Below are positions 39,219-40,848 of a stretch of DNA of 64,000 bases, piece by piece. Every line of letters begins with the position of its first letter. Position 1 is the stretch's first letter. The notes under the pieces were generated by a model. It did no database searches, was not told where the DNA came from, and saw nothing but the letters and a program-made list of their open reading frames with translations. Source of the stretch: Candidatus Polarisedimenticolaceae bacterium (GTDB taxonomy: Bacteria; Acidobacteriota; Polarisedimenticolia; Polarisedimenticolales; DASRJG01). The position numbers and the translations under genes were made by a program. The stretch is taken from positions 575,238-639,237 of the forward strand of contig DASUCV010000004.1 in the NCBI GenBank assembly GCA_036275915.1. Direction: 5' to 3'.

Positions 39219-39854
39219 ATGGATCTCGTGCAGCCCGACATCGACCGGTACCTTGCCGCCTTCGCCGCCCACGACGACCCGGTTCTCCGCAGGATGGAGG
39301 CGATCGCCGCCGAGCGCGACTTTCCGATCGTGGGGCCGCAGGTGGGGCGCCTCCTCGAGATGGCGGCGCGTGCGTGCGGGGCGCAGCGCGTGCTCGAGCT
39401 CGGCTCCGGATTCGGCTACAGCGCGTACTGGTTCCTGCGCGGCACGGGGCCGGCGGGCACGGTCATGCTCACCGAAGGGAGCGCGGAGAACGCGAAGTCG
39501 GCGGAGGCCTATCTCACGCGCGGAGGTTTCAGCGGGCGGTTCCGCATCGAGGTCGGCGACGGGCTCGCGATCGCGGAGGCGCTCGAGCCACCGTTCGACA
39601 TCGTGTTCTGCGACATCGACAAGCACGACTATCCCAAGGCGCTGCCGATCGCGCGCCGCCTCGTGCGTCCCGGCGGCCTCTTCATCATCGACAACATGCT
39701 GTGGGACGGCCGCGTCCTGAACCCCGCACCCGACGATCACGTGACGCGCGGCGTGCTCGAGCTGACGGCGGCGCTCAAGAGCGCCCCCGACTTCGCGGTG
39801 TCGATCGTGCCGATCCGGGACGGCGTCGCGATCGCGACGAGGCTCGCGCCCTGA
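39219..39854 (+). CDS. Class I SAM-dependent O-methyltransferase (caffeoyl-CoA/catechol type)
   Basis: 211 residues. The SAM-binding motif I is VLELGSGFGYSAYWF near residue 55. FDIVFCDIDKHDYPKAL contains the metal-binding Asp, and GGLFIIDNMLWDGRV contains the second metal site (D-N), as in cation-dependent O-methyltransferases of the CCoAOMT/COMT group. The acceptor is unknown. Its TGA overlaps the proposed CTG start of the peroxiredoxin-like selenoprotein gene, in the same manner as other coupled pairs in the window. Confidence 0.88.
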   Translation: MDLVQPDIDRYLAAFAAHDDPVLRRMEAIAAERDFPIVGPQVGRLLEMAARACGAQRVLELGSGFGYSAYWFLRGTGPAGTVMLTEGSAENAKSAEAYLTRGGFSGRFRIEVGDGLAIAEALEPPFDIVFCDIDKHDYPKALPIARRLVRPGGLFIIDNMLWDGRVLNPAPDDHVTRGVLELTAALKSAPDFAVSIVPIRDGVAIATRLAP

Positions 39855-40315
39855 CCCGCCTCGACGTCGGTAGTTCCGCGCCGCCCCTCTCCGGGACGAC
39901 GGCGACCGGCGAGCACTACGACCTCGCCGCGCCGCGCGCGCGCAACGTCCTGGTCGAGTTCCACCGCGGCACCTGGTGACCGAACTGCGTGCGACGCATC
40001 GCGCAGTTGCGCGAAGGGGTCCAGAACCTTCGAGCCGCCGGACTCGACGTCGTGATCGTGCTCTGCCAGAAGCGGTCGGCGGTCACCGAGTGGGTCGTGC
40101 GTCACCCGCTGCCGTTTCCCTTGCTCGTTGACGGCGATCGTTCGCGTGCGAAGGGCTGGGGCGCGTACGTCCCGTTCTCCTATGACTCGATCAACATCGC
40201 GCGGCCCGCGTCGTTCGTCGTCGACACCGCCGGTGTGATCCGATACGCTCGCCTTTCGCGGCATCAGCTCGACCCGGCGCCGCTCGAGGGGATCCTCGGC
40301 GCCCTGCCTCTGTGA
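39851..40315 (+). CDS. Peroxiredoxin-like (AhpC/TSA, UxxC) candidate selenoprotein with in-frame TGA
   Basis: 154 residues if the TGA at 39977-39979 is read as selenocysteine. Before it lies VLVEFHRGTW, after it PNCVRRIAQLREG; the family motif here is FxRGxWCPxC, so the TGA replaces exactly the first, redox-active Cys, giving U43-P-N-C46. Downstream the same frame continues as a normal thioredoxin-fold domain (FPLLVDGDRS, ARPASFVVDTAGVIRYA) to the TAG-less TGA stop at 40313-40315. C72 lies in VIVLCQKR. No ATG, GTG or TTG is available upstream; CTG at 39851 overlaps the preceding TGA (CTGA) and is the likely start. A nonsense mutation or a sequencing error is the alternative. Confidence 0.75.
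39999..40014 (+). promoter_or_regulatory. Candidate bacterial SECIS hairpin
   Basis: The sequence TCGCGCAGTTGCGCGA forms six consecutive Watson-Crick pairs with the tetraloop AGTT. The loop begins 25 bases after the UGA and has G as its second base. That agrees with the published description of bacterial SECIS elements (loop about 16-37 bases from UGA, a G in its first two positions). An overlapping alternative pairs AACTGCG at 39983-39989 with CGCAGTT at 40002-40008. Short GC hairpins are common at this base composition, so the support comes mainly from position. Confidence 0.5.
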
Positions 40316-40326
40316 AGGAGCACGCC

Positions 40327-40848
40327 ATGCGGATTCTCGTGACCTTCGTCCTCGCCGCCCTGGTCTCGACGGCCGCCGCCCGCGCCGAAGGCTCGCCCCT
40401 GGCGCCGCTCGACTTCCTCCTCGGCTCGTGGGAAGCGACCGGCGGCGGCGCGCCGGGAAGCGGCCTCGGCAGCACGACGTTCGAGCGCAAGCTCGGGAAC
40501 AAGGTCGTGGTACGCACGAACCACGCCGACTACCCGGCGTCGAAGGATCGTCCGGCGTCCGTGCACGACGACCTCATGGTGATCTACGCCACGTCCGACG
40601 GTCAGATCCACGCGAGCTACTACGACAACGAGGGTCACGTCATCGACTACACCGTCGAGACGGCCGACGGCTCGGCGGTCTTCACGAGCGGCAACGTCCC
40701 CGGCATGGGGAAGTTCCGGCTGACCTACAAGCAGGCGTATGCGGGGATCGTGAGCGGACGGTTCGAGATCGCGCCCGCGAGCGACCCGCAGGCGTTCAAG
40801 AGCTACCTCGACTGGACGATGAAGCACCCGACGGCGCCCTCGAGGTAA
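40327..40848 (+). CDS. Secreted DUF1579-like protein
   Basis: 173 residues. The ATG at 40327 is preferred because GAAGGAG lies 6 bases upstream and it gives a signal peptide (MRILVTFVLAALVSTAAARA); a GTG at 40312 overlapping the upstream stop is possible. The mature part begins PLAPLDFLLGSWEATGGG and contains HDDLMVIYATSDGQIHASYYDNEGHV, typical of the lipocalin-like DUF1579 group. Its biochemical role is unknown. It follows the peroxiredoxin-like gene closely and ends 2 bases before the DUF2071 gene. Confidence 0.75.
   Translation: MRILVTFVLAALVSTAAARAEGSPLAPLDFLLGSWEATGGGAPGSGLGSTTFERKLGNKVVVRTNHADYPASKDRPASVHDDLMVIYATSDGQIHASYYDNEGHVIDYTVETADGSAVFTSGNVPGMGKFRLTYKQAYAGIVSGRFEIAPASDPQAFKSYLDWTMKHPTAPSR

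Follow-up and report, generated by a model that had tools for sequence, protein, structure and literature searches.

Selenoproteins of the peroxiredoxin-like (Prx-like) kind, in which a UxxC motif marks the active site, have been previously described in the Sargasso Sea study, where they were set against peroxiredoxins of the TxxU type (PMC1088965). They are present in Deltaproteobacteria (PMC1794560), account for 225 sequences of the GOS set under the name Prx-like 1 (PF00578, UxxC; PMC2398784) and are included in a 2026 review (PMC13188914). This kind of selenoprotein has been known since 2005, and the gene analysed here is a new, unannotated one of that kind. It lies at positions 39851-40315 of the window, i.e. 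the whole 64,000-nucleotide stretch of DNA under analysis. What is modestly new is the clade to which it belongs, since Sec is found in every member seen. Judging from the sequence, we are nearly certain that the gene encodes a selenoprotein with Sec at codon 43.

Reading frame, active site and probable chemistry

The features of the locus are the following:
39219..39854, forward strand: upstream neighbour, an O-methyltransferase gene (Methyltransf_3), whose stop overlaps the CTG start of the next gene
39839..39842, forward strand: GAGG, possible ribosome-binding site for CTG 39851, as read from the sequence
39851..40315, forward strand: Sec-containing Prx-like gene, 154 codons including Sec43 and then a TGA stop; the CTG start is putative
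39977..39979, forward strand: in-frame UGA, probably read as Sec43, position 1 of UxxC (all 14 orthologues have TGA here, and the genome encodes Sec machinery)
39986..39988, forward strand: TGC, the second, invariant Cys46 of UPNC (an invariant column in two alignments)

Translation of 39851-40315 gives exactly one internal stop, the TGA at codon 43 (39977-39979), with FHRGTW before it and PNC after it; the terminal TGA is at 40313-40315. In the read-through product, residues 6-132 of 154 match Pfam AhpC-TSA with an E-value of 3.4e-21 and cover the profile almost fully, and Redoxin matches as well (E 2.5e-18). This confirms the original prediction of a whole AhpC/TSA-like domain with a single TGA placed on the first Cys of the motif. 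The prediction had also anticipated that a standard gene caller would return a fragment from about 39989. Indeed, standard ORF calling yields a 201-aa ORF ending at 39979 and a product of 108 aa from GTG 39989.

The nearest in-frame ATG, GTG or TTG on the 5' side of the domain is GTG 39701, located deep within the upstream methyltransferase gene. CTG 39851 overlaps the TGA stop of that gene as CTGA and has GAGG 8 nt upstream. It is likely that this non-canonical codon is the start of the Sec gene. There is no recognisable signal peptide in the protein of ~154 residues. The gene order HD-domain, MFS, methyltransferase and Sec gene is common to the sister genus and occurs in none of the six other genomes inspected. 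The gene directly downstream (window 40324-40848) encodes a predicted secreted protein of 174 aa with no Pfam match at E 0.001. A genome search for the pattern TGG-TGA-(N)5-STGY found 20 sites as compared to 31 for the reversed-pattern control, so this motif alone is no evidence. The single-sequence AlphaFold model of the protein has a pLDDT of 36, which is too poor for use.

The cis-Pro, the Prx Thr and the Prx Arg have well-known roles in these folds. We aligned the Sec protein with BCP-type Prx and TlpA/ResA-type proteins. Cys46 aligns with the peroxidatic Cys of BCP-type Prx. Sec43 aligns with the Prx Thr and with the first Cys of CxxC oxidoreductases, and Pro119 with the Prx Arg and with the Pro of oxidoreductases. 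A typical peroxiredoxin has Thr or Ser three residues before the peroxidatic Cys together with a conserved active-site Arg; here U43 and P119 stand at these places. The description "peroxiredoxin-like" in the original prediction holds for the fold family but not for the active site, which lacks the Prx Thr and Arg and looks Trx-like (UxxC plus Pro) rather than like that of a true peroxiredoxin. Given this pattern of Cys46, Sec43 and Pro119, the protein most likely has the chemistry of a UxxC thiol:disulfide oxidoreductase, and peroxidase activity via the same UxxC pair is possible.

It is rather unlikely that the protein is, instead of a Trx-like oxidoreductase, a true peroxiredoxin using Sec as the peroxidatic residue in the manner of the TxxU type. 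AhpC-TSA is its best Pfam model, as would be expected in that case. However, the alignment with BCP-type Prx assigns the peroxidatic position to Cys46, puts Sec in place of the Prx Thr and Pro119 in place of the Prx Arg, and published Sec-Prx are TxxU proteins whereas the Prx-like group is UxxC (PMC1088965). For a Trx-like UxxC protein we suggest the following scheme. The product would be a thioredoxin-fold protein of the AhpC/TSA superfamily, ~154 residues long, with the redox motif U43-P-N-C46. Its Sec selenolate would attack a disulfide or peroxide substrate, Cys46 would resolve the resulting intermediate by forming a selenenylsulfide, and the enzyme would be regenerated by a thiol reductant of the cell. 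We consider it probable that the protein works through such a Sec-selenolate cycle as a thiol:disulfide oxidoreductase or a thiol-dependent peroxidase.

The Sec codon among homologues

Relatives at E <= 1e-6 are found in 21 of the 41 genomes of the class, and the best of them have a single TGA, which falls on the same codon. In a search of 396 genomes of the phylum with a profile built from six orthologues, the 14 top-scoring matches reach 120-245 bits and the following one 99; TGA occupies position 1 of RGTWUPxC in all 14. This orthologous group comprises 14 genes in 14 genomes, spread across many families of the phylum, and it forms a single clade with support of 100/99 in a tree of 61 homologues (midpoint root). 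Since the same codon carries TGA in all 14 orthologues, its presence is not a matter of chance. Frameshifts or further stops in relatives would have counted against the original prediction; none of the 14 orthologues has a second stop or a frameshift.

The window gene and the orthologue from the sister genus are 51-53% identical. Over the 111 codons after the TGA, dN is 0.39 and dS is 0.93, values that indicate purifying selection on this part of the gene. The part before the TGA comprises 29 aligned codons, too few and too loosely aligned for an estimate of selection. These results bear on the idea that the gene is a decaying pseudogene in which a Cys codon was mutated to nonsense, which we regard as very improbable. 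A single in-frame stop in an otherwise ordinary domain and the fragment shown by standard callers agree with decay. On the other hand, the identical TGA in 14 of 14 orthologues from many families refutes it in practice, and both purifying selection on the downstream part and the lack of a second stop or frameshift argue against it.

Cys forms exist further away. Specifically, the best 30 profile matches, taken irrespective of the codon, include 26 with TGA, three with TGC and one of a different Prx type. We added 20 loci picked for the absence of TGA, 20 picked for its presence and the earlier class-level loci; the 55 Sec and 6 Cys rows are a selected set and not a census. TGC or TGT replaces the Sec codon in six more distant homologues, and on the 61-homologue tree the Cys forms make up two separate groups nested among Sec forms. 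The original prediction had proposed to look for TGA or Cys codons at this position in homologues. The in-frame UGA stands where homologues have UGA or Cys, with TGA in the orthologues and Cys in a minority of the more distant ones. SelA is present in all 14 genomes of the Sec clade. It is missing from the three genomes of genus g55 that have the Cys form and present in the three g62 genomes with the Cys form.

No Cys member of the 14-gene clade was found in the phylum sample of 396 genomes. Tentatively, the FxRGTWUPxC clade (14 genes, all Sec) might represent a distinct Prx-like subfamily that is wholly Sec-dependent, has no Cys form, has a dedicated substrate and escapes standard annotation, although we would not count on it. 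A scan of genome contigs with the single protein returned only one distant relative, from Myxococcaceae. A separate scan of viral contigs found no relative, so a phage origin is unsupported. At another homologous locus (G039:C5:12993-13430) an open frame of 542 aa continues from a UxxC Prx-like domain into a long repeat protein that looks like a YVTN-type beta-propeller.

Sec machinery and the predicted SECIS hairpin

The original prediction depended on Sec machinery being encoded in the genome. The genome of the window (4.5 Mb, 98% complete) has selA, selB, selC and selD. More specifically, tRNA-Sec with the anticodon UCA is located at C4:356751-356843 (72.4 bits against a cut-off of 47), SelA at C4:447777-449111 (518 bits), SelB at C4:396390-398216 (314 bits; full-length, with the C-terminal region intact) and SelD at C11:265241-266182 (361 bits). 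The selenoprotein reading is supported by this machinery together with the TGA of the 14 orthologues.

SelD has its own in-frame TGA, in the N-terminal motif CAGUASK. Many SelD proteins are known to be selenoproteins, and the SelD of this genome is likely one itself. At C13:37912-37926 there is a lipoprotein-like, thioredoxin-like frame (VEVWAPW-U-HSCRYMRATVL) with TGA on position 1 of UxxC and 227 further open codons after it; this frame is likely a third selenoprotein of the genome. In the class, SelA occurs in 39 of 41 genomes. The only two without a SelA match, G018 and G021, belong to the same family (f6) and are both near 100% complete, which possibly reflects loss of the Sec trait.

Bacterial Sec insertion has a further signature, the SECIS hairpin, for which the window gene offers this candidate:
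39999..40014, forward strand: predicted bacterial SECIS hairpin, 6-bp stem UCGCGC/GCGCGA, apical loop AGUU (40005-40008)

Its loop starts 25 nt past the UGA and its energy is -9.4 kcal/mol. Published limits for bSECIS elements are a loop of 3-9 nt with G in the first two positions, a stem of 4-16 bp, a distance of 16-37 nt from the UGA and an MFE of <= -7.5 kcal/mol (PMC13188914). The hairpin at 39999-40014 falls within all of these limits, and a longer segment of the window folds better into a competing stem. To tell RNA constraint apart from protein constraint, we generated 2000 synonymous recodings of the 48 nt following the codon in each gene, at the same GC3. As compared to their own recodings, the 55 Sec genes have a mean z of 2.2 (2.1 for the 43 non-redundant ones), with p < 0.1 in 77% of Sec genes. 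The six Cys genes, in which the hairpin is absent, have a mean z of -0.2. The combined probability is tiny but should not be taken literally, since the genes share ancestry and two clusters supply all six Cys genes.

The apical loops of the Sec genes are mostly GGU, GGC or AGUU, with G in the first two positions, and, taking the T of TGA as the starting point, loop starts recur at 20, 25, 28 or 29 nt. Between close orthologues a compensatory change replaces the stem pair T25-A36 by G25-C36. Taken by itself, the window sequence has a hairpin that only slightly exceeds chance (p 0.06), and general folding of the 43-64 nt after the TGA is not significant by itself. We predict that the 39999-40014 hairpin is a SECIS element, as it fits the published bacterial model. 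The UGA at 39977-39979 would be read as Sec by tRNA-Sec and SelB, steered by this hairpin within the coding sequence, ~25 nt downstream of the UGA.

There is very little to recommend the view that an altered genetic code or a suppressor makes the UGA stand for Cys or Trp and not for Sec. In its favour, what is seen is the codon and not the inserted residue. However, UGA serves as an ordinary stop codon in this genome, since the Sec gene and its upstream neighbour both end in TGA. A dedicated Sec system is encoded, and Sec members but not Cys members have a SECIS-type hairpin downstream of the UGA. Least credible of all is a one-base sequencing or assembly error, excluded in practice by separately assembled genomes having the same codon; the Sec machinery and the SECIS-like hairpin would then be coincidences.

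Relation to described redox selenoproteins

The gene is a clear case of one cut short by standard callers because UGA most probably means selenocysteine. For this lineage, with its nearly universal SelA, correct annotation alters the predicted redox repertoire. The invariant Sec of the clade is a fair subject for asking why some thioredoxin-fold enzymes keep Sec over Cys.

Several described families share features with the protein. It has weak profile similarity (E 1e-8) to the SelL-related redox protein of NCBIfam NF040769, and at 34.9 bits, below the curated cut-off of 120 bits, it does not qualify as a member. ResA/TlpA-type thiol-disulfide oxidoreductases, to which it is 26-28% identical in the alignment with BCP-type Prx and TlpA/ResA-type proteins, have CxxC where the window protein has UxxC, and they share its Pro at the cis-Pro position. 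Unlike them, the window protein has no signal peptide seen, carries Sec for the first Cys and has an extra FxRG motif. Sec-containing peroxiredoxins (TxxU) belong to the same superfamily and have Sec at the active site. Their Sec occupies the peroxidatic position and is preceded by Thr at a distance of three residues, whereas in the window protein Sec takes the place of that Thr and the peroxidatic position falls to the second Cys.

The closest likeness is to the Prx-like thiol:disulfide oxidoreductase selenoproteins (PF00578, UxxC; WP_010940744.1 type; the "Prx-like protein" of Sargasso Sea/GOS). These are single-domain members of the AhpC/TSA superfamily in which UxxC replaces CxxC, found in bacteria with Sec machinery, and the window gene likewise has a PF00578 domain with UxxC. 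A literature search for the exact motif gave no match. Compared by description, the clade differs from the published Prx-like selenoproteins in having no Cys member in our sample and in its own conserved FxRGTWUPxC and IA[RH]P motifs.
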